Source: Syncephalis plumigaleata (lineage: Eukaryota; Zoopagomycota; Zoopagomycetes; Zoopagales; Piptocephalidaceae). From it: a stretch of 64,000 nt of DNA. The position numbers and the translations under genes were made by a program. The notes under the pieces were generated by a model, which was not told the DNA's origin, made no database searches, and saw only the letters and a list, made by a program, of their open reading frames with translations. Shown here piece by piece: positions 11,604 through 64,000 of the stretch (position 1 is its first letter; each line of letters opens with the position of its first letter). The stretch spans positions 434,001 through 498,000 of the forward strand of contig JAIXMF010000008.1 in assembly GCA_025201365.1 (NCBI GenBank). Reading direction: 5' to 3'.

Positions 11604-13988
11604 ATGGCGTCACAGCCAGGCACTCATGGCTCGTCTACTTCTGCCGACAGTGAACGAGTTCTGGCTGTGAAGTCTTCGCTTTCCGGCATTGGTTGGAAGA
11701 AGCATCACGATGTTTGCGCGATTTTGTAAATATCGTACATACTACGACCTTCCATGCCTATTCGCTCCTAAAGTACATTTTTCTTGAACAGCAGCATAAT
11801 CGGCACTTTGACATGGAGAGGTATATCCGTGTAGACTTTTTCAAAGAAGTATGGCTCTCCTTAATCAAGCCCAAAAAAGCACACGAGCCTCAAGAGAAAA
11901 CAGGTCGATATCGCGCGTTCCTCGACGACCATGTTAGAACTTACCTTGTCCATACTGGCTATAAAAAGCCAGAGTTGGCCTATGCTCAGCAATCAGCTAC
12001 TTACGAGGCAAGGAAGATGTACGTCGCTTACACCAACAACGTCCGATTGCGCTTTGGTGATCATCTTCGACGCGCTATTAACGAGCATTTCAAGGTTAAG
12101 AAGAAGTTAAAGGATATGAGGGATGGATTGCCCAAGGATGTAACCGCTGATGTGATTCGCAAGAAAACCAATAAAATCACTGAGCCAGCAAAAAAGTTCA
12201 AGCTAGCGATGGTACAGCGAGACGGGCCTAAAAGGTTGGCTGGTGAGGGTCGCATGTTTGCTGGAGCATACAACAAATTCAAAGGTGTTTTAAATGCTTA
12301 CGGTAAAGATTACAAATTTGGTACAAACGGCATTTACTACGACTGTAAACAACACCCGGTGAAGCACTTTAAGGCGTTCCTTGAACTTGCGCGTCTGTTT
12401 AAGAAGCTCGAGTTAAAGCCTTTCAACTGCTTTCCCTTGCGCCGATCCTTCTCGCCGTGCTACGTCCATATCGACACAGTTATTCTTTGCCACAACATAT
12501 TAGGACGCAGTTATGATGATAAGAAGACTGAGCAGCAGAAGGAATTGGAGAAGAAGTGGACTGATGAAGAGAGGAAGGAAGCCCTTAAGAAGAAAAAGAA
12601 GAAACATTGGGGAGAAATCGTGGAGCTCAATCGAAGGGTATTCAGAGATCAAAAGGATGGTGAGCTCGAGTTTTCTGGCTCGATTGAGACCGATGGCGTT
12701 GGTGTCACGGTCCTCAAAAAGGGCATCGAGAAGGTCACCGAGGAAGGGGGAGCGAAATCAGCAAAGGATCCCTTCCCGTATATCAGTAAATTAAAAGCTG
12801 ATGATCACAAGGCAATCGACGGCAAATGCGTGGCGGTGGACCCGGGAAGAAGGAACTTACTGTTTTGTGTACACGAAAACTCGACGGTGGAAAATAAGCG
12901 CAAATATCGGTACACGAAACTACATCAAGACAAGATGCGAAAGATGAAGAAATACCGCAAGATTCGCGATGACTGCAAGGAGGGGAATTTGGCGGTGCAG
13001 CAGGCCGAGGTGGCTCTTTCGGAAACCAAGAGCAACACTATATCTCTACAGGAATATAAGGAATATCTGGGACGCCGATCACAGCACTCGGAGGTCCTTA
13101 CTAGCTTCTACAGAGATACTCTCACCCTCCCCTCCGACCATTCTGCCCAACATCCTCTCTTCAGGAAGCTGAAATTGTCAGCCTACATCAGCAAGCAGCA
13201 AAGTGATCAAAAGCTGATTGATGACTTAAGGGAGAAGTTCGATGGGGATGCAGCATTTGTGATGGGGAACTGGTCAGCTCCTCACACCAAATACCACGAG
13301 CCCATACGTGGTATTGGCTTTAGAAGGCTTTTAAAACGACATGGGTTTAAAGTCTTTCTAATCGACGAGCACAAGACCAGCAAGTGCTGCCCAGCCTGCA
13401 ACAATCCCACCCTCGAGAAATTCAAGAAGGTCCCAAATCCTCGACTCAAGAAACGCAAAGACAGCCATAGAATTATCTGTCATGGTCTTTTAAGGTAAGT
13501 ACAATCTATTACACTTTGCTATTTATCATAACATATTAATTAATTATTTTATTAGATGCACACATCAAACTTGTAATAAAGCCATGAAAGATATAAAGGC
13601 TAAGAAGGAGCAAGAGGATATGATGGACGTGGATGACGAGGAGGAGCAAGAGGATAGGATGGACGTAGATGACGAGGAGGAGCAAGAGGATCTGATGGAA
13701 GTGGATGACGAGGAGGAGCAAGAGGATAGGATGGACGTGGATGACAAGAAGCGCAAGAAGTATAAGGAGGATCCGGAATTTAACAGATACGATCATCGTT
13801 TATGGAATCGGGATATGGCTGCATGTCTGAACTTCATTCAGATTATTCGCAGTGTTCGTGAGGACAAGGGTGTTCCAACACAATTCCAACGACGTGCCGT
13901 TCCTCCTCCTGATTCTGGTACATCCGCAAAAAATTCACTAAATGAGGGACAAGATCAAGAGGGATCCAAACAACAAATAACAAATTAA
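11604..13988 (+). CDS. Fanzor RNA-guided nuclease (TnpB-like)
   Basis: Two exons, 11604-13494 and 13556-13988, with a 61-base GTAAGT..TTAG intron. Known family role: Fanzors are eukaryotic TnpB relatives that cut DNA with a guide RNA. RuvC-I is CVAVDPGRRN (Asp at 12839-12841). The usual RuvC-II Glu position reads FVMGNWSAP, without Glu, and a Glu stands instead in LIDEHKTSKCCPAC (13367-13369), the alternative position described for Fanzors. The zinc ribbon is CCPAC plus, across the splice, CTHQTC. RuvC-III is LWNRDMAACLNF (Asp at 13812-13814). Between ribbon and RuvC-III lies an acidic repeat of about four DVDDEEEQED-like units, absent from the derivatives. The ATG at 11604 gives MASQPGTHG, but the frame slips by one base near 11720, before RDFVNIVHTTTFHAYSLL; without that slip the protein would be about 770 residues. 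Confidence 0.85.
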
Positions 13989-32459: not shown

Positions 32460-33248
32460 TTAGCGTACCGTACGTAATGATCCAGATGACATCCACGCAA
32501 GTAGTTTCTCTAGTTTGCCAGCTGCTGTTGTAGTATTCGTTTCACCATTAGTTGTCGCTGTTATCGCACCATTACCACCTGTGCTAGTAGATACGGTCTC
32601 TCCTTCAATAGGATCGAGTCGCATACGTAAATCGACATTCGATCGTGCTTGCTCCACATGTTCTGCCGCATGGCGACGTAGTTGCTCCAAATTATGCATA
32701 CGCGCCTATCAATCATCGTAAATATCCTCGAGTAGTCTAGTTGTGCATTCCAGTACTTACCGCTACATCTGCACCATCCGCACTCATTGCTAGACGGGCT
32801 GCCATCTCTTCACGCTCCATGGCCGGTAACAGCTTGGTTCGCAATAGTACCGGTAGTGATCCCGCTTCCGCTTCATTAACCGGCGGTTCACATGGATGCA
32901 ACGCCAATCCACTTAGTAGGGCATGATAGCGCAAGGTTTCCGCTCGCAAGTGAGTATGCTTCGCCACTAACACGTTGAACTTTCCCAGTAGATCTGGCCT
33001 GAATCAACCAAGTATGTGAGTGCACGTCTCGAAAGCATAACGGGCACAACTTACCAGGAAATAGGAACAGGATTGTCAGGATGAACAGCTTGCATAAAAA
33101 AGTAGTAGGATTCACGTAGTTGAAGCAGTCGATCTCTAACCGCTTGTAGTGCTTCAATCGTGTTGCGATCCAACTCTGGATGTGGAATAACCGGTGCTGG
33201 TGGTGCTGGTGGCAATGCCGACTGACCTGGTTGGACGGGTGTATTCAT
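32460..33248 (-). CDS. MED8: Mediator complex subunit 8
   Basis: Three exons on the minus strand, starting at the ATG at 33248 (MNTPVQPGQSALPPAPP). The joins TG/G (near 33053 and 33000) and GCG/GCG (near 32760 and 32711) are in phase. Conserved features: LEALQAVRDRLLQLRESYYFF helix, then the NPVPISWPDLLGKFNVLVAKHTHL block, then a helix ending in RHAAEHVEQARSNVDLR and a C-terminal short helix. The W-P-x-L-L-x-K-F-N-V-L core is the MED8 head-module signature. MED8 bridges MED18/MED20 to the Mediator head and contacts RNA polymerase II. About 220 residues, close to the fungal and animal size. Confidence 0.87.
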
Positions 33249-33695
33249 TCTGTTAAGCAACAACAACAACAACAACAACAAAGGAATGTATAACGAGAAA
33301 AGAAACGTCGATTGACGATAATAATAATGGTAAATTCTGACAATTGACAGATCATGCGGTTACACGACATGACAGACTTTCAGCATTCATCTAATTGGTA
33401 CTAATCTGCTATGTGTACAACCTACAAGTATCAGATTGCCCATTCAGCTATATCAATATTTACTCCTAATTGGCATGATGCTGTTGGAATAGTCTTGCGC
33501 TATCATGCGGATAGCAAATCTACTGGTCGATATCCACATGGATTGCATGGTAAACGTGCAGTCTGCTGAATATTCCATCATTCCGAGTACAATGCATGTG
33601 CAGAGGAGAGTATCGTATGGAGATGGTCTGATTGGTCTATGAGCATCTTGCTATGTTCACTTGGAAATATCCGCCATCATCATCATCATCTCGGT
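33249..33695. other. divergent promoter region
   Basis: Upstream of both MED8 (minus) and the micro-exon gene (plus). AT-rich, no coding region. It ends at a TATA box for the plus-strand gene. Confidence 0.55.
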
Positions 33696-33702
33696 TATAA
33701 AT
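33696..33702 (+). promoter_or_regulatory. TATA box of the micro-exon gene
   Basis: TATAAAT stands about 145 bases before the ATG at 33843. It is followed by a pyrimidine-rich leader with a repeated CTCTATTCTA unit, a style typical of strongly expressed fungal genes. Confidence 0.55.
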
Positions 33703-33842
33703 CAAGCACTTTTTGGCACACTCGACTTGTCATCTTCATACTCGCTCTTCTACTCTATTCTACTCTATTCTACTCTATTCTCTATTTTTTACTTTTGTTC
33801 TAGTCTGTTTATCTGTCTATATCTCTCTAGGCCAACATCAAC

Positions 33843-35323
33843 ATGAAGTACTCTGCTATTATCGCTATTGCCGTCGCCGTTGTCGCTCTCACCAGTCTGG
33901 TCGCCGTTGAAGCTAGTCCCGTCCTGGAACGTCGTGGTATGTCTGGCCGTGACCCTATCAATTGATGTACTAATCGTAGCCTATTGTTTCATTGCCTACC
34001 GATGATTACCGATAGCTCGTAAGTTCATGTATATTAAATGGTTGTTTTGACGTGTTAATCACGTTGCAACGTTTATTCTGCATATTAATTTGTTAGCTCA
34101 ATGGGGTAAGCTAGTTTATTGACCATGACAAGTGCTATGCTAATAGTAATATAAATTAAAATCATGTGTGATTACCATTTCAAGGACCTGTAAGTTATCA
34201 TTCTGACTATGATGTACGAATACTAACTACGACATGGTTCGCCATTCTTGTATGCTTGTGGATAACAGCCTGTAAGCTAGTATCCTAATTGTAATGCACA
34301 ATGTATTAATAATTATGATATGATACATGATCCACGTATGTTTGTATACTAGCCTGTAAGTTATCATTCTGATTGTAATGAATGGCGTACTAACTTTGCT
34401 ATGACACATGATCCACATACATTTTGTATGACAGCCTGTAAGTCGACATTCCAATTATAATTATGCTGTACTAATTACGATTTGGCACACGATCCACGTA
34501 TGCTTGTGCATAACAGATAGTAAGTAATCAGAATGATTGTAATGAATGATATGCTAATCGCGCTATGGCATACGACCCATTTATGTTTGCGTATGATAGA
34601 TGGTAAGTTAATATTTCTGGCTGCAAGGAACCGGGCACTGATCGCAATATGGCACACAATCTATACATTATTGTATGATAGTCGGTAAGTTATCATTCTG
34701 ACTACAATGAATGAATACTAACTAAGATGTTTCTGTATGTTTCTGTATGTTTCTGTATGCTAGATGGTAAGTCATTATTTTGATTGTAATGAATGACCCA
34801 TTAATTATTATAATACGGTACATGATTCATTTCCTTGCCTGCACCAGCCCGTAAGTTACCATTCTAATCGTAATAAGCGAGGTACTAATTACGATATAAC
34901 ACGCGATTCACATACGCTCCTGTATGCTAGGCCGTAAGTTGCCATTTTGACCCTAATGAATGAATGACATACTAACTGCGATCTAACACATGGTCCACGT
35001 ATGTTCCCGTATAATAGAAAGTAAGTAATCATTCTGACTAAATGTATGACGTGCTAATTCCAATACAATGCCCATTAATTGAATGATAGGAATAAGCAGT
35101 AAGTAATAACCCACCATGATTATACCCCCTACTAATCCATTATGATTACAGAACAAGTCAAGGACATCATCAAGTAGATATTATAGGTATTCAAGTCAAA
35201 AATGTATTGGTGCAAGACCCTCATTTAGTGTCCATGCCATTCAAGTCATTATTCCTTGGTACAACAACAACAAGTATATCTACAAGTCCCTTCCGTCTAT
35301 TAATCCATGGTCCTATTACATAA
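33843..35323 (+). CDS. secreted peptide gene built from codon-sized micro-exons
   Basis: Exon 1 (33843-33936) encodes a signal peptide and a dibasic site: MKYSAIIAIAVAVVALTSL, then VAVEASPVLERR. Then come introns of about 80 bases separated by tiny exons: 34016-34018, 34097-34105, 34185-34189, 34269-34271, 34353-34355, 34435-34437, 34517-34519, 34600-34602, 34682-34684, 34764-34766, 34848-34850, 34931-34933, 35018-35020, probably 35097-35098, and a last exon from 35152. Eleven exons are exactly three bases. Joined, they read APQWGPPPPIMSMPAK directly after the Arg-Arg. Each intron has a GTAAG donor (the first is GTATGT), a CTAAC/CTAAT branch-like site and a TAG/CAG/AAG acceptor. The last exon is open in two frames, so the C-terminus is unsure. 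Polyadenylation signal AATAAA is near 35341. I know no family for it; a processed secreted peptide or pheromone-like product is an inference. Confidence 0.6.
33937..35151 (+). repeat. tandem array of ~80-base introns
   Basis: About 15 units repeat with an 81-88 base period. Each holds GTAAGTTATCATTCTGA-like 5' sequence, GTAATGAATG, a TACTAA branch-like motif, a GGCACATGATCCACGTATG-like block and TTTGTATGATAG. Introns 4-12 are 79-81 bases. Units have diverged to perhaps 60-80 percent identity by eye, so the array is not brand new, yet splice signals are kept in every unit. Confidence 0.8.
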
Positions 35324-35339
35324 ATATTAATCATTGATT

Positions 35340-35845
35340 GAATAAATATGTAATGCTCTAGGGCATTCTTTTATTCCATTTTACATTTATCAATTATACT
35401 ATTATTATGATCATGTAGCGAGTAAATATATACTCGAAAGAGAAATTTAATCCATATTGCCATTAGATCCGAGATTGTCACCATTAGAGGTCAATTGTTA
35501 TGGTTTGTTCAATAAACAAACAAAAAAAAAGCGAGTAGACCACGTGTTATTACGGCTATAACTGTTACTTATCAATGTTGATAACACATGCTAACCATTT
35601 AGCCGCTTCATTGTATCGTCATAATTTGCATGAACAATCTATAAATAGCTAGGATAAGCTATCGGAGTATAGCTTTATCCAAAATGCTAGGGCATTCAAT
35701 TATAGATTGTAAAATGAGCTGTAAACATTAATACATAAAAATAAAAATAAAAATATACATTTTTTCTTATCCTATTAACGTAACTGCTAGTACTACCTAT
35801 CCAACTTATAACGACATCATCATCATCATCATCAACATCATCATT
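35340..35845. other. intergenic, no gene seen
   Basis: AT-rich. Contains a short repeated phrase CTAGGGCATTC (near 35358 and 35689) of unknown meaning, and a CAT run just before the next start codon. Confidence 0.55.
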
Positions 35846-37327
35846 ATGTGGCACCATTCAATTGTAATCGTGTTGTGTTCACTTGTTGTGCACAACTTAT
35901 CGGTTACCGCTAATGATTATCAACTTCTTACTAGCACTCCCGATGCTCCTGTTTACGTGTCACGAATTACCGGTAAATCGTTTAGTATGACACCCTATTA
36001 CGAACACACAGGCATAAAGGCATTCCACGAAAAGTACCACTGGTACGGTCAAGGTGTAACTATCGCCATTATTGGTGGTGATGTCAATCTTCAGCAGCGT
36101 GTGTTTACCGATGCAGCATCGTCCAATGAACCATGCATGATAGATAAAGAGGACTATACAAAACAACATCAGAAGAGTAGTGTCGTGTCCTATCAGATCG
36201 ATCATCGACATGGCACTGAAATGGCCGCGATTATCAGGGCAAGAACCAAGACATTTAAAGGTGTTGCACCGGAGGCTAGACTAAATATTTACAAGGTATT
36301 CGCATCTCATGCACCTACCTCGACTTCAATAGTGCTTGAAGCATTTCAAGCGGCCATACGCGATAAAGCGGATGTTGTAGTATTGCCAGAAATTGGTATA
36401 ACTGATTCATCCGATATACCGCTATTGAAAAGAGAAATCATTAGTGTGGCCAATCAAGGAGTGATTATACTAGTGGCTGCTAGTAATCACAACTATCCCG
36501 TGGATCCAACTACTTCTGCTTATTTCCCCTATAATGGATTACCAGTTATTTCAGTGGGTGGTGCCAAATTATCCTATCGTATGTCGCACTGGTTTACCAT
36601 GCTTAATGTTCCATTGATTCGTTTTACGTTTACATCGCCTTGCAGTGATATGAAGACTAAACTTGACGAGGTAAACATGATCTCACTCGCTGAATTACGA
36701 ACACGGAATCGAGCATCTATGAACGAGTTAGTCAGGAACAAGATTGTTCTCGTCATGGATCAGCAAATGGGCGATGATGAATTGCTTAGCATGATTCAGA
36801 GGATGGATATCGCAGGTATTGTCACTGATATACGGGATCATCAGCAACTATCATGCGGCAGGCCTTTATTTATTATTAGTAAATCAGATGGTCAACTCAT
36901 CAGTGGCATGTATAGGAAGAATCCACGACAAATGCTCGTGTTCGCCGGTGAACATGGTAATATTAATGAAAATAGTCCCGCTCTCGTTGATTCCATGGAT
37001 CCTACATCGCCTTACGGTAAACCATCTGTTAAGCCTGACATTCTAGCGCCTAGTCAAGATCTATTCACCGTAACGAATACCGCCTTCAATCATGGCTACA
37101 TCCAGTATAGTGGTATCGATGCTGCCGTCTCGTATGCGGCAGGTGCTGTTGCCTTATTTATTCAAGCCAAGGAACGAACGAATATTAATGTGTTCACCGT
37201 AAAGCGTGCACTTCAAAATACCGCTTCTGACGTGTATTATTCATTGACTCGTAAAGGTCTTCAACCGGTTAAATACCCATATGCCGGTCTACTAAATGTA
37301 GAACAAGCACACTTTATGACTAGATAA
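35846..37327 (+). CDS. secreted subtilisin-fold protein, probably catalytically dead
   Basis: Single exon, 493 residues. A signal peptide (about 1-22, MWHHSIVIVLCSLVVHNLSV) is followed by a subtilase (S8) fold with an inserted PA-like domain (roughly 265-350). The His motif DHRHGTEMAA is present (His122) and the oxyanion Asn is in AASNHN (Asn214). The catalytic Asp motif, normally VIDTG, reads AIIGGDVN (Gly77 in place of Asp). The Ser motif, normally GTSMAAP, reads GIDAAVS (Asp425 in place of Ser). The frame is fully open, so selection has kept the protein while two of three catalytic residues are gone. It is an extracellular pseudoprotease by sequence. Possible roles are binding of peptides or inhibitors, which is inference only. 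Confidence 0.85.
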   Translation: MWHHSIVIVLCSLVVHNLSVTANDYQLLTSTPDAPVYVSRITGKSFSMTPYYEHTGIKAFHEKYHWYGQGVTIAIIGGDVNLQQRVFTDAASSNEPCMIDKEDYTKQHQKSSVVSYQIDHRHGTEMAAIIRARTKTFKGVAPEARLNIYKVFASHAPTSTSIVLEAFQAAIRDKADVVVLPEIGITDSSDIPLLKREIISVANQGVIILVAASNHNYPVDPTTSAYFPYNGLPVISVGGAKLSYRMSHWFTMLNVPLIRFTFTSPCSDMKTKLDEVNMISLAELRTRNRASMNELVRNKIVLVMDQQMGDDELLSMIQRMDIAGIVTDIRDHQQLSCGRPLFIISKSDGQLISGMYRKNPRQMLVFAGEHGNINENSPALVDSMDPTSPYGKPSVKPDILAPSQDLFTVTNTAFNHGYIQYSGIDAAVSYAAGAVALFIQAKERTNINVFTVKRALQNTASDVYYSLTRKGLQPVKYPYAGLLNVEQAHFMTR

Positions 37328-42264: not shown

Positions 42265-42831
42265 TTAATAATCATTATCAGATTTGTAATCATTCTTGGG
42301 TTTGTATTCGTTCTTGGGCTTATACTCGTCCTTGGGCTTGTATTCGTTCTTTGGCTTATACTCGTCCTTGGGCTTGTATTCGTCCTTGGGCTTATACTCG
42401 TCTTTTGGCTTATACTCGTCCTTGGGCTTGTATTCATTCTTGGGCTTGTATTCGTTCTTGGGCTTGTATTCGTTATTTGGCTTATACTCGTTCTTTGGCT
42501 TGTATTCATTCTTGGGCTTATACTCGTCCTTGGGCTTGTATTCATTCTTTGGCTTGTATTCGTTCTTGGGCTTATAGTCATTCTTGGGCTTGTATTCGTT
42601 CTTTTTGCTGCTATACGGATCCTTGGTTTCTACTACTGAGTAGATGTCCTCAGGTGGAACGTAAGCGTCATCGCTGGTTGATGGTAAATTGTTGTTATAG
42701 TCGTGTTGGAAGCGTCGGAGGATTCGAGCTAAATGATCGTGCTGATCATCGGCGGAAATTCCTGGAGCGGAAATGGCAACAAGTGCGCCAGCGCACAAAG
42801 CCATACCAAAAACAGAGTTGAAGCGTACCAT
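42265..42831 (-). CDS. secreted YKPKNE/D-repeat protein
   Basis: Single exon, 188 residues, from the ATG at 42831. The signal peptide is MVRFNSVFGMALCAGALVAI with a likely cut after SAPGISA. A short unique segment (DDQHDHLARILRRFQHDYNNN...) is followed by about 19 tandem six-residue units, (N/D)-E/D-Y-K-P-K, to the end of the protein. The 18-base DNA unit varies at synonymous and N/D positions. The repeats are highly charged, Tyr- and Lys-rich and probably disordered. This layout suits a cell-wall, extracellular-matrix or adhesive protein. No family match is claimed. Confidence 0.8.
   Translation of the reverse strand: MVRFNSVFGMALCAGALVAISAPGISADDQHDHLARILRRFQHDYNNNLPSTSDDAYVPPEDIYSVVETKDPYSSKKNEYKPKNDYKPKNEYKPKNEYKPKDEYKPKNEYKPKNEYKPNNEYKPKNEYKPKNEYKPKDEYKPKDEYKPKDEYKPKDEYKPKNEYKPKDEYKPKNEYKPKNDYKSDNDY
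42277..42613 (-). repeat. 18-base coding minisatellite (YKPKNE/D)
   Basis: About 19 tandem units of 18 bases with TCGTCCTTGGGCTTATAC-like sequence on the plus strand. Phase is kept throughout, and unit number is likely to differ between strains. Confidence 0.9.
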
Positions 42832-59382: not shown

Positions 59383-60522
59383 ATGTCCCGCGAGTTGCGA
59401 GCTCTAGCCAACGATCCACACAACGCACATATCATGGCTACATTGCAGCAACCTGGCCAAGACAACCAGCCAGACGCAGGACCTGCCCCTCGTCGAGATG
59501 CCGCGCCCAACCGTGTCGAAGGTACCCCTGTTCCAGCACACGAGGACCTTGCAAACCCTTTCGGCGAGTACACGCCAAATGCTCGCCGAGTTTGTGAACT
59601 CGTGAACGGTGTAGCAACCCGATTAGATGAACTACAAGTTAACGAGCAGAATCAAGTGCAAGAGTTTCTCAACGCACACCAACGACGCCACGATTTAGCT
59701 CACCTATTTCGGAATGCTGCGCCCACGCATCAAGTCAACTTCCCGCCAGTACTCCCTCCCATCAAGATTGAAGAGTACGATAGGAAGAAGGAGGACTTCT
59801 ACACGTGGCTTACTCGTTTTGAACTTATCGTCGCCAAATACGAGCTGCTCAACGACGAGAGTATTCACCAGCTCATGATTGCCATGAGTCGCTCATACCC
59901 TCAATGGGCCCGCACCACGAGTTTGGCGCTGGATCAACGTCCGATGACGTACGGTGACGTGCTAAATAGCTTAAAACGACATGTACTCGGTGGCGACCCC
60001 ATCGATAAGGCGATGTTGCAATTCCGCCAGACACGTTACCGATCGCCGGAAACGTTACGAAGCTACGCCAATCGTATCACCGAAGCTGCCCTCAACGCCA
60101 ATCAAGGACCGGAAGAACAATGGACGCAATTCCGATGTGGCCTTCCGGAAGATTTACGCTCGCACTTGACGTTACACCGCATCACTAATTGGGAACAGAT
60201 GATGGACTTTGTGGATGATCTCGATGTATTAACCAAGCAACGCAAGTCACATACTGTCGCCGCCCTCGATATACCCAATCCTGATCCGGTTGTAGCTCAC
60301 GCCGCTCCTCGCCCACAACAGAATGCTCATCGTAGACCTAACACCAACCGTCCTCGTCCAGTCACTCGTAGCTGCTTCCTTTGTGAGGGTACGGATCATT
60401 TCAAGAATGATTGCCCTTACGCTGACGCTATCCAGGAAGCGATTCGACAAAAACGCAATGCACCTGCAGAACGGAATGTCGAGGCTGACGTCAATACTGG
60501 CGTGCAGCAGACGGAAAACTAG
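59383..60522 (+). CDS. gag: Gag protein of the Ty3/gypsy element
   Basis: 379 residues. A retrotransposon gag domain is visible in the middle, and near the C-terminus there is one CCHC zinc knuckle, CFLCEGTDHFKNDC (C-x2-C-x4-H-x4-C), after a His/Pro/Arg-rich linker. The protein would form the particle and bind element RNA. Fossil or young copy of a mobile element, not a host gene. Confidence 0.88.
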   Translation: MSRELRALANDPHNAHIMATLQQPGQDNQPDAGPAPRRDAAPNRVEGTPVPAHEDLANPFGEYTPNARRVCELVNGVATRLDELQVNEQNQVQEFLNAHQRRHDLAHLFRNAAPTHQVNFPPVLPPIKIEEYDRKKEDFYTWLTRFELIVAKYELLNDESIHQLMIAMSRSYPQWARTTSLALDQRPMTYGDVLNSLKRHVLGGDPIDKAMLQFRQTRYRSPETLRSYANRITEAALNANQGPEEQWTQFRCGLPEDLRSHLTLHRITNWEQMMDFVDDLDVLTKQRKSHTVAALDIPNPDPVVAHAAPRPQQNAHRRPNTNRPRPVTRSCFLCEGTDHFKNDCPYADAIQEAIRQKRNAPAERNVEADVNTGVQQTEN

Positions 60523-60527
60523 AACGG

Positions 60528-62888
60528 GTGTGTGCCATTGAGGCCGCGCACGCCCAAAATGCTGATAAGTCCTCGGTAACCTTCGCTACAAGCAAAACCT
60601 CCAGCCAAGGTATTATGCTCGTAACCGGTACCATCGGTGGAACCGCATCAGATATGTTAGTAGATACTGGCGCGCAATGTACAGTGGTGACTCAAGATCT
60701 CTGTCGACAAATCGGTCGAAAGTTACCCCCACACACTGCGTCCCAAGTAAGGTTAGCTGACGGCAAGTCCGTTCAAACTCGTGGTCGCATTTTAATTCCT
60801 ATTAATGTGGCAGGAGTTAGCGCTACTATTAATGCTATCATCTTAGACATGGCTCCTTACCCTGTTTTGTTAGGTATGGACTGGCTGAGTCATCCTTCGA
60901 TTCGTGCCAATGTGAATTGTTATGATGGTATCATTAGTATAGCAGATCAACATGTGGAAACATCGGTTATGACAGATATGTCTGGTGTACTAGCTATGCG
61001 CGTACAGTTTATCGCTGCTGATGACCCTTGGTCGTCTATACCTGTGAACGCGATAGTTCATGACACGTCCATTAATCATGTTGATGACAGAGTCGTTGAA
61101 TCCCACTTCCCTACTACTGCAGTAGAGAAAGCCCGTTGTGAAGAGAAAATGAATCATTTATTACATCAGTATCATCGTGTTTTTGCTATTAATCCTAAAC
61201 GTCCCGGCATCGTCACCAAGACGAAACATCGTATTGACACCGGCGACTGTTTACCTATCAACTCTCCGCCTTATCGTTCATCTTTCAAGCAGCGCGACAA
61301 GATCTCTCAAGAAGTGCAAGAAATGTTGAAGAACAATATCATCGAACCATCTCATAGTCCCTGGGCATCACCGATCGTACTCGTTGGTAAGAAGGACGGA
61401 GGTGATCGATTCTGTGTCGATTATCGACGTCTGAACGCTATCACGAAGAAGGACGTTTATCCTCTTCCTCGAATCGACGACGCGTTGGATGCTTTAGCTG
61501 GCGCTACCTGGTTTAGCACGCTAGATCTGGCCGCTGGTTATTGGCAGATCCCAATGTCTGATGCTGACAAGGAGAAGACGGCGTTCATCACGAGCGATGG
61601 TCTTTATCAATTCCGCGTTATGCCCTTCGGTCTATGTAATGCACCAGCAACATTTCAGCGCATGATGGATGAGGTTCTCGCAGGCTTGAAGTGGCGTACC
61701 TGTTTGGTATATCTTGACGACATCATTGTTTTCGGCCGCACTTTCGACGATATGCTAATCCGCCTTGAAGAAGTGTTCCTACGACTGATCAACGCTGGAT
61801 TACGCTTGAAACGTTCTAAATGTCATTTCGCGCAACAAGAAATTGCATACTTAGGACACATCGTCGGAGCTCGTGGTCTCTTACCTGATACAAGTAAAGT
61901 TGACGCCGTACGCAAGTTCCCTCAACCTGTCGATATTCGTGGTATCAAGAGCTTCCTCGGCCTAGCATCCTATTATCGTCGTTTCATCCCCAACTTCGCC
62001 ACCATCGCTGAACCATTACGTCGACTAACCAAGAAAGGAGTACCATTTGAGTGGACACTCGAGCAACAATCTTCTTTCGAGCGGTTACGACAGACCCTTT
62101 CCAGCGATGCTGTCCTCGCATTTCCGAAGTTTGACCGTCCATTCCGTGTTGAAACCGACGCGTCCTCTGTAGGATTGGGTGCCGTGCTTGCTCAGCAACA
62201 CAACGATGAATGGCGACCAGTAGCTTATGCTAGTCGAGCTCTTTCTAAAGCGGAAAGTAACTATTCAGCCACTGAATGTGAATGTTTAGCTATAATCTGG
62301 GCTTTGGAAAAGTTCCGTCCTTACATTTATGGTTGTCCGTTCACCGTCGTCACAGATCATTCTGCTTTACGATGGTTAATGAGTCGTCCCGTTTTAACTG
62401 GAAGGTTAGGACGATGGACCCTCAAGTTACAGGAATGTCAGCCCACCATCGAATACCGTAAAGGCACATCTAATGCCAACGCGGATGCTCTTTCTCGTGA
62501 TCCGTTGCCCTGGAGCCACTTCGTTAGCGAATGTACGACGAATCCCGACACACCAGATGAAGAAGTAGACAGCAACGAACAGCGCGACTACCCGATACCA
62601 CTTATCGAATCTCCAGCAATCGCCGCCGCCGTAGACGAAGATCCATCCGTGAACGAAGAGAGTTTGGCCAACTCGATTCCGACATTACCTACACCCGACG
62701 AATGGCGCGATGCTCAGCGTGACGACGTTGAGTTCGAAGGTGTTTACGCCTTCCTATCCGACAACAAGCCGTTCTTCGAGGAGGTTGGTTCCGAAATGCT
62801 ACGCAAGATTCGACGCCGCGCTGAATCATACCGTATACAAGATGGCAAGTTACTACGCATTAAAAAAGGTCAACGACTTGTAGAAGTA
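60528..62888 (+). CDS. pol: Pol protein of the Ty3/gypsy element, partial
   Basis: Aspartic protease (LVDTGAQCTVV), reverse transcriptase (FCVDYRRLNAIT, FSTLDLAAGYWQIP, LVYLDDIIVFG) and RNase H of the gypsy type (RVETDASSVGLGAVL, TDHSALRWL). The start of the integrase-side linker is reached before the inserted element begins. Gag and pol lie in different frames, as is common in this family. Confidence 0.9.
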
Positions 62889-64000
62889 CAGTGGGGGAAA
62901 AAATTGTTCACGTGTTATATACTTTTTTACTTTCCCAATCACTACACAATTAATAAACAACATATCACTTTGTACTTTTACATGTTAATAAAGCTATTAA
63001 TTCTCTTTCTAATGATATAAAATATGTGCATACTTTATTATAGATTTCTTGAGATATTAGTGTTGAAAGTCACGTGGTGCACGTGAACAATTTTTTCCAT
63101 TACTAATAAAATTAACATTTCTTACCAATAATCAATTTTTATTCAATTTAAATGTAATAAAATGTTTATATATGAGTAAATACGAGCTGTCGTGCATCGT
63201 ACGAGCAATAAATAATTATAAATCAAGTTGATGTGGTTGAGCAATATGGCTATAATTGCTCATTTTAATGTATAGTAAAAATGTTACTACAGTATGCTTT
63301 ATTCACTTCCAAATGTTGTGCAAATGCTTATTAAAGCGCTTTTAAGCAATGGTAGCCTCCCTAGAACCACTGCGGGCAAGTTAGCTATGGTTAAAGATAT
63401 GATTACATTGAACAATCACGCATGCAGCTGCTGGAATAGCGTTCATGTTACTACAATTTCGCTTATTACTCAGTGTACATTCGACCGATCCTACTTAAAT
63501 TGCAGGTTATGATAAAGCACGTCTTCACGCAGATAATGATATAAAATAATGCTATGTCGATGGGAAAAGCGTCTAGTTATCATCCTACAAAGATGATGTC
63601 ACATTAATGTCACTGAATAGCGTAAATTTTAATTTTAATTTTTTGTAATAAATTTATTAATTAATGCCAAAAATAATAGTAAAAAATAGCGCAGAGCACG
63701 TCTTCACGCAGATAATAAACAATAACAATAGCAGTTAATAAAGTGTTAAAGAATTTATTAAAAGATTTAATAAGAATTAATTTACGCTATTCAGTGACAT
63801 TAATGTGACATCATCTTTGTAGGATGATAACTAGACGCTTTTCCCATCGACATAGCATTATTTTATATCATTATCTGCGTGAAGACGTGCTTTATCATAA
63901 CCTGCAATTTAAGTAGGATCGGTCGAATGTACACTGAGTAATAAGCGAAATTGTAGTAACATGAACGCTATTCCAGCAGCTGCATGCGTGATTGTTCAAT
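62889..64000 (+). mobile_element. TA-inserted element with nested inverted repeats, runs off the window
   Basis: Starts CAGTGGGGGAAAAAATTG directly after a TA inside the retrotransposon pol, as Tc1/mariner-like elements do. A 19-base perfect inverted repeat joins 62896-62914 and 63080-63098. A much larger inverted repeat lies at 63407-64000. No transposase is recognised; a 72-codon frame at 63294-63512 has no family resemblance. The right end is outside the window, so the total size is unknown. Confidence 0.55.
63407..64000. repeat. perfect 222-base inverted repeat with 150-base spacer
   Basis: The arm 63407-63628 is the exact reverse complement of 63779-64000, and the right arm may continue past the window end. 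The spacer is AT-rich and holds a third, direct copy of AGCACGTCTTCACGCAGATAA (63517 and 63696). Matching was checked base by base by eye with no mismatch found. Confidence 0.93.

Follow-up and report, generated by a model that had tools for sequence, protein, structure and literature searches.

One-codon exons in tandem: a predicted family of micro-exon peptide genes in the fungus Syncephalis plumigaleata

Can a coding sequence be divided almost codon by codon? This question is raised by a locus in Syncephalis plumigaleata, a zoopagalean fungus with a genome of 32.6 Mb, whose genus is described as mycoparasitic in PMC10386755. The locus lies in a stretch of 64,000 nucleotides, the whole of which is called the window here. 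The initial annotation described the middle of the gene as about 15 tandem introns separated by micro-exons, eleven of them exactly three bases long. The locus was parsed by dynamic programming using splice-site matrices that had been trained in a preliminary, rule-based pass over the same set of loci, with reading frame and stop codons invisible to the model. The parse placed a gene with 15 introns and 11 three-base exons on the + strand, from 33843 to ~35350, with the following predicted features.

33843..33936, + strand: exon 1, 94 nt, leader MKYSAIIAIAVAVVALTSLVAVEASPVLERR and the first base of the next codon (phase 1)
33937..34015, + strand: intron 1, GTATGT...TACTAAT...GATAG, phase 1; its join is found in the plain DNA of three intronless paralogs
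34016..34018, + strand: exon 2, 3 nt, CTC
34097..34105, + strand: exon 3, 9 nt, CTCAATGGG; following exons 1 and 2, the peptide goes on with Ala-Pro-Gln-Trp-Gly
34185..34189, + strand: exon 4, 5 nt, GACCT, changing phase 1 to phase 0
34269..34271, + strand: one-codon exon, CCT (Pro)
34353..34355, + strand: one-codon exon, CCT (Pro)
34435..34437, + strand: one-codon exon, CCT (Pro)
34517..34519, + strand: one-codon exon, ATA (Ile)
34600..34602, + strand: one-codon exon, ATG (Met)
34682..34684, + strand: one-codon exon, TCG (Ser)
34764..34766, + strand: one-codon exon, ATG (Met)
34848..34850, + strand: one-codon exon, CCC (Pro)
34931..34933, + strand: one-codon exon, GCC (Ala)
35018..35020, + strand: one-codon exon, AAA (Lys)
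35090..35098, + strand: last short exon, GAATAAGCA, comprising Glu, the stop TAA (35093-35095) and GCA
35099..35151, + strand: last (15th) intron, 53 nt, in the 3' untranslated region, acceptor TTACAG
35152..~35350, + strand: last exon, 3' untranslated region, similar across the family

Past exon 1, the predicted exon lengths are 3, 9 and 5 nt, then ten exons of 3 nt and one of 9 nt, and introns 1-14 measure 79, 78, 79, 79, 81, 79, 79, 80, 79, 79, 81, 80, 84 and 69 nt. Introns 1-3 are in phase 1, the 5-base exon is the switch, and the introns after it are in phase 0. Both the intron number and the eleven three-base exons of the initial annotation were recovered by the parse, and the introns of the wider family are mostly 76-84 nt. 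The three-base exons far exceed the shuffled-sequence expectation, as the pattern AG-N3-GTAAG occurs 11 times in 33937-35098, whereas 2000 dinucleotide shuffles average 0.028 occurrences and never exceed 2; beyond the array it occurs six times on the + strand in the rest of the window and six times on the entire - strand. The observation of tandem one-codon exons, as features predicted from the DNA, is thus confirmed.

One detail was revised. A 2-base exon had been proposed before the last intron, and this piece is best read as the 9-base GAATAAGCA with TAA inside, because one intronless paralog (L064) has GAATAAGCA and another (L063) has CATTAAGCA directly before the last-exon sequence. The dynamic-programming parse placed the acceptor of the last intron at a later AG, at 35186, and the intronless paralogs favor 35151. 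The last exon is translated in three annotated models (P0126, P0130 and P0131), a coding reading that was rejected because the three intronless paralogs stop before it. The 3' end of the gene (window 35090-35380) is 83-94% alike in the 39 other matches listed, among the best 40 of 242 candidates.

A search of the genome with the DNA of the window gene returned at least 125 matching pieces (best 40 of 260 candidates scored), and the leader protein gave at least 144 matches (best 150 of 167 candidates scored). The signature of intron 1, allowing up to three mismatches, was found at 57+46 = 103 places genome-wide, with none for the reversed control. Judged from these matches, the window gene is one of about 100 places that share the intron-1 signature and belongs to a dispersed family, some copies of which, on small contigs, are probably alleles. 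A strict pattern for the intron-codon unit gave 523+516 = 1039 matches genome-wide, a count that is slightly too high as at least one place was entered twice with different gaps, and again none for the reversed control. In 30 fetched loci this pattern starts at 255 places where the parse gives 553 three-base exons; the genome may therefore hold around 2000 three-base exons, a rough figure that combines two counts made slightly differently.

Altogether 35 loci were parsed, of which 30 are distinct and 26 of these are complete genes. The stop, AG, cysteine, phase and complete-gene (frame) counts given below are for the distinct set, which leaves out four near-duplicates (L004, L031, L051 and L053) and one locus with an insertion (L050). 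The 30 distinct loci hold 518 copies of AG-N3-GTAAG on the + strand, against a single copy on the opposite strand. Complete genes (n=26) are predicted to carry from 4 to 47 three-base exons; the largest, L049, has 47 of them in a gene with 50 introns and an 81-residue precursor. Units are homologous to one another, 43-75-base stretches of different units being 61-88% alike. In the excluded locus L050 (C193:1-7000), an insert of about 2.2 kb lies within the codon-exon array when compared with its near-copy L054 on C68, and the parsed regions measure 5164 and 2990 bases, respectively. No RNA family reached the gathering threshold in 33000-36000, and the literature searched, with subscription journals largely outside its scope, contained no account of this family or of extended series of one-codon exons.

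Four other features of the window were recorded. A 601-codon open frame at 11693-13498 (+) resembles a TnpB/Fanzor-type nuclease, with a zinc-finger-like CPAC..., and scored 17.1 bits against the Pfam Cas12f1-like_TNB family, under the cut-off of 26.3. Two adjacent open frames at 59383-63020 (+) resemble, by eye, the gag and pol of a Ty3/gypsy-type retrotransposon. At 42265-42831 (-), a signal-like leader is followed by many tandem 18-base units coding EYKPKN/EYKPKD. Finally, an unbroken subtilase gene (PF00082, E 5e-19) follows the micro-exon gene after ~0.5 kb, at 35846-37327 (+); proteases of this type include some that act on Arg-Arg precursors.

The reading of the arrays as spliced coding sequence was examined through properties that the parser could not see. 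Among the 553 three-base exons of the 30 distinct loci there is a single stop codon (in L058), where positional base frequencies would predict 14.7 and the background 35.4. The frame at the last short exon is kept in 24 of the 26 distinct complete genes and the stop lies inside that exon in 23, counts that depend on a manual reading of one L057 donor as GC and would otherwise be 23 and 22. The irregular loci are L007, which is out of frame and has no phase-switch exon; L058, with its inner TAA; L055, where the stop is reached only via an alternative acceptor, the upstream one of two AGs; L036 and L052, which have no clear acceptor at one exon; and L034, incomplete and outside the frame count, where, in the parse, a 9-base exon holds a stop. 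In 28 of 30 loci frame 0 is reached through an exon of 2, 5 or 14 nt among the first six, and L056 reaches it at exon 8, so that 29 of 30 carry such a switch. Synonymous codon choice tracks base composition (r 0.60) more closely than it tracks the codon choice of four other open reading frames of the window (r 0.40).

The intron signals point the same way as the initial annotation, which had listed a GTAAG-type donor, a branch-like site and an AG acceptor. These are seen throughout the family, where donors are mostly GTAAGT (GTAAG in most of the 544 training introns), branch sites mostly TACTAAY and acceptors AG, and AG is strongly excluded ahead of the acceptor. From 13 bases past the branch point to the acceptor, only 3 AGs occur in 553 introns as against 586 expected by shuffling, and 550 introns lack one as against 160 expected. 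When the first 12 bases after the branch point are counted too, the figures are 116 AGs versus 906 expected and 440 of 553 AG-free introns versus 80 expected. Because related repeats could share the absence of AG through descent, an expectation from column frequencies was also computed for 298 introns of one length; this gave 0 AGs versus 29.1, with the control GA at 399 versus 409. Weaker donors (GTAGGT, GTGAGT, GTAAAT and GCAAGT) also occur in the arrays. The last belongs to GC-AG introns in the arrays of L008 and L057, where TGG precedes GCAAGT, two occurrences in all; GC donors are a rare but known type.

Plain DNA of the same genome bears on the joins at both ends of the array. The annotated protein P0129 is encoded full-length without introns at four genome places, two identical and two at 82-84%, while P0140 is intronless at four places (97-100%) and P0135 at one; one DNA copy of each of P0129, P0140 and P0135 was read as L062-L064. 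In these copies the leader runs directly into GCYCCTC, a sequence formed in array genes only once introns 1 and 2 have been removed, and CGTCGTGCYCCTC stands uninterrupted at the start, as the joins at introns 1 and 2 into exon 3 predict. At the other end, nothing separates TAAGCA from AGCAAGAC or AACCAAGAC, with which the last exon of array genes begins. The stop in L063 and L064 is the TAA of TAAGCA, and the frame of L062 ends two codons earlier. As read from DNA, the paralogs support the stop and the predicted joins at the first, second and last introns; the inner one-codon exons are not directly addressed by them. At two places an apparently intronless member (a 126-codon open frame) lies ~1 kb from an array member on the opposite strand, namely C362:569861-569968 (-) beside L012 and C179:64755-64862 (-) beside L048.

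For the inner exons, three public annotations were compared with the parse. The NCBI model P0122, which corresponds to L055, contains 38 of the 41 parsed codon exons in order, and P0123, which corresponds to L049, contains 40 of 45 in order. P0121, at L042, shows a run of six codon exons and then reads into an intron; some of the 14 matches counted among its 32 are single letters that agree by chance. Of the eight codon exons omitted by the L055 and L049 models, six lie at weak donors (GTAGGT, GTAAAT and GTGAGT), which would suit a computer prediction no less than transcripts, and the NCBI models may therefore be predictions. They lend support from an independent hand, though not proof of transcription.

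Relatives outside this genome are short proteins from jgi/ena sources, taken for metagenomes, 30 of which match the leader, three only at E >0.001. By eye, 12 of the 30 run from the leader into intron-1-like sequence (RRGTSGHGHIN type), and 10 of the 30 continue with Ala-Pro, Asp-Pro or Val-Pro past the basic site or its counterpart. From these matches, array and intronless forms both seem to be present in other species.

The conceptual product of the window gene is MKYSAIIAIAVAVVALTSLVAVEASPVLERR-APQWGPPPPIMSMPAKE, of 48 residues, and the 23 complete genes in which the stop is reached predict precursors of 44 to 81 residues. The leader, common to the family, is signal-peptide-like and hydrophobic, ending ...VEA-SPVLERR by eye; the Arg-Arg, judged by eye to be a protease site, is invariant in 12 aligned precursors and missing from L037. 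The predicted mature peptide is hypervariable, with a C-Xn-CC-Xn-C pattern in 9 of 30 loci. Cysteine is the first codon exon in 13 loci, compared with a permutation mean of 2.3, and none of 20000 permutations reached 13. Adjacent CC pairs show a mild excess, 10 versus 5.6 by permutation (664/20000). Protease-processed secreted peptide precursors carry a dibasic site after the leader, as does the array-gene leader with its terminal RR, a putative cleavage site. Conotoxin-type precursors combine a conserved leader, a dibasic site and a hypervariable mature peptide with a cysteine pattern, a likeness of precursor layout offered as an analogy only. None of five peptides scored above the cut-off in Pfam; their sub-threshold matches were to conotoxin, Orai-1, a spider-toxin family and Wzz. 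One of the five matched conotoxin PF02950 at 17.7 bits, under the cut-off of 25.1, so that no homology is shown, and another matched the spider-toxin family at 11.4 bits, under the cut-off of 27. Solved structures gave five matches (E 0.005 to 0.7) over 8 to 18 profile positions, to designed proteins by name.

How the units change was followed in closely related pairs, which are not mutually independent. For 78 pairs with 1-5 differences per 76 flank bases, from 28 loci (without L033, L058, L050 and the near-duplicates L004, L031, L051 and L053), the three codon positions differ at 0.19, 0.27 and 0.18, compared with a mean of 0.039 and a maximum of 0.128 in the flanks. With 6-9 flank differences, flank position +32 (0.355) exceeds the codon values of 0.275, 0.297 and 0.174 and +31 (0.283) equals the codon, and with 10-14 differences the codon once more varies most. 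The idea in the initial annotation that the array could be a new way of varying a peptide agrees with this faster change of the codon in closely related units. In a wider set of all pairs from 32 loci (without L033, L058 and L050), differing codons at 1-5 flank differences are non-synonymous in 40 of 44 pairs; this ratio is weak evidence because random differing codon pairs are synonymous in only 3%, and it is the rate that matters. Pooled over 15 hand-picked gene pairs, difference rates are 0.161 for codon exons, 0.089 for introns and 0.037 for exon 1, and 0.045, 0.026 and 0.012 for branch sites, acceptors and donors. Six of 12 close pairs have no change in 327 codon-exon bases, compared with ~9 expected at intron rates, and the other six have 46 changes in 306 compared with ~23. 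The constraint hinted at here concerns only some of the genes, the six/six split having been made after the counts were known.

Arrays also differ by whole units. In four of five aligned pairs of close paralogs there is one large gap, of 161, 162, 164 or 174 bases, holding exactly two donors and two acceptors, that is two whole units; two of these four pairs share L039 and possibly reflect one event, and the fifth pair has no gap of 30 bases or more. Of 378 units (19 loci, one per close group), 69 have their nearest unit in their own gene, compared with 25 expected at random; when close copies are kept, the figure is 30 of 584 or 51 of 510. Growth of the array by duplication of an intron-plus-codon unit, as initially proposed, is therefore borne out insofar as whole units come and go between paralogs, but duplication within a gene, though visible, is not the main pattern.

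These results were weighed against readings in which the inner units are not exons. Exon 1 could join the last exon directly across one long intron, leaving the inner units as mere repeats, and an open frame does continue by eye, exon 1 (G) followed by AACAAGTC... giving GAA CAA GTC AAG GAC ATC ATC AAG TAG. However, this would leave the scarcity of stops, the placement of cysteine, the exclusion of AG and the kept frame to chance, and in the three intronless paralogs the letters of exon 2, those that begin exon 3 and TAAGCA separate the leader from the last-exon sequence; we regard a single long intron as very improbable. Marginally less credible still are decaying or non-coding arrays, in which spliceable introns multiply as selfish elements and the three bases are filler. 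The units are indeed homologous and numerous, the entropy at the codon positions is 1.99, 1.95 and 1.80 bits (flank maximum 1.9), and pooled change in the codon exons of the 15 hand-picked pairs is at or above that of the introns (0.161 versus 0.089). Against filler stand the one stop among 553 three-base exons, the cysteine placement and the six of 12 close pairs free of codon-exon change, although the other six are above the intron rate and the split is post hoc. We conclude from the DNA that the window gene is very probably a working member of a large micro-exon family, in which the intron-codon unit would serve as a frame-safe module for varying a peptide.

Two further readings accept the exons. 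Single codon exons might often be skipped, so that one gene would yield a mixture of in-frame peptides. Every one-codon exon is frame-neutral, donors vary in strength (GTAAGT versus GTAGGT, GTGAGT, GTAAAT and GCAAGT), and the exons skipped by the L055 and L049 models are mostly weak-donor exons (6 of 8). However, cysteine codons adjoin weak donors in some loci, where skipping would unpair them, and the AG exclusion with mostly strong donors suggests efficient splicing; such combinatorial splicing appears unlikely, if well worth bearing in mind. Somewhat more plausible, while still the less favored account, is that the intronless paralogs arose from array genes as processed copies and are not their ancestors, as they carry exact spliced joins at both ends. 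Some of the sequence upstream of the ATG is also similar and no clear poly-A tract was seen by eye, for which DNA duplication with intron gain fits better. This question concerns the history of the genes and not the reality of the exons.

For the array genes as working micro-exon genes, we propose the following mechanism. Exon 1 would encode a secretion leader with a terminal Arg-Arg, and the mature peptide would be assembled from tiny exons, mostly of one codon, between homologous introns of about 80 bases; cleavage at Arg-Arg would then free the hypervariable peptide. Splicing would proceed by intron definition, with the strong donor and the branch site inside the intron, and with these contacts inside the intron the three exon bases could be any codon. 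A 3-base exon would be too small to be bound on both sides at once, which suggests stepwise intron removal and maybe frequent skipping. Because the later introns are in phase 0 and the exons are single codons, gain, loss, change or conversion of a unit would keep the frame. Such small secreted peptides may act where the fungus meets its host fungus, under pressure to vary. Complete splicing, secretion, cleavage and a role in the interaction with the host are inferred from sequence. The broadest form of the proposal, for which we would claim slightly less than an even chance, is an architecture in which residue and exon coincide, most residues of the mature peptide having an exon of their own: a secreted peptide that could be rewritten one residue at a time, with the frame kept, by recombination, unit gain or loss, point change and perhaps exon skipping, as a eukaryotic, intron-built generator of diversity against fungal hosts.

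The family was also compared with known systems. Introner elements are introns that multiply and are inserted in many unrelated genes; here too there are many homologous introns in one genome, but they are arrayed in tandem within one gene family, a codon separating each from the next, the units examined being those within arrays. The predicted gene layout is more extreme than any other known to us, and if transcripts bear it out we would know of no coding gene more finely divided. Schistosome MEG genes encode variable secreted parasite proteins from many small exons, mostly multiples of three, given as 3-81 bp in the abstract and as 6-81 bp, mostly 15 bp, in the main text of the source, between introns of 100 to almost 5000 bp (PMC10526429). 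The multiple-of-three internal exons are shared, with 4-47 three-base exons per complete gene here; the runs of exactly 3 nt, the ~80-nt homologous introns, the occurrence in a fungus and the leader differ. Aphid bicycle genes are a large family of putative effectors with many single-phase micro-exons, over 100 in one gene encoding ~2000 residues, and have internal exons nearly all in phase 2 and CYC motifs in many proteins (PMC9168663). They resemble the present family as a large effector-like micro-exon family, whereas here there is one codon per exon in phase 0, an Arg-Arg leader and C-Xn-CC-Xn-C in part, and CYC motifs were absent by eye from the parsed family peptides. The schistosome MEG and aphid bicycle genes are alike in outline, with numerous micro-exons in secreted or effector-like products that change fast, but exon size, intron size, phase and motifs set the present family apart from them. 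Plant micro-exons of 1-15 nt, including the 1-nt exons of APC11 and VPS55 and the GTRAGT donors of VPS55, show that exons this small can be spliced, but as far as the source describes them they are single and conserved, or two adjacent in one rice example, in ordinary genes (PMC8831610).

The public models of three loci omit part of the codon exons, and similar families may therefore hide elsewhere. The intronless paralogs, together with the apparent family members outside this genome, make the origin of the introns testable. If transcripts confirm the arrays, they would provide a test of the spliceosome on exons whose size does not allow the splice sites on either side to be occupied simultaneously, and of whether selection for evolvability favors intron-dense layouts.
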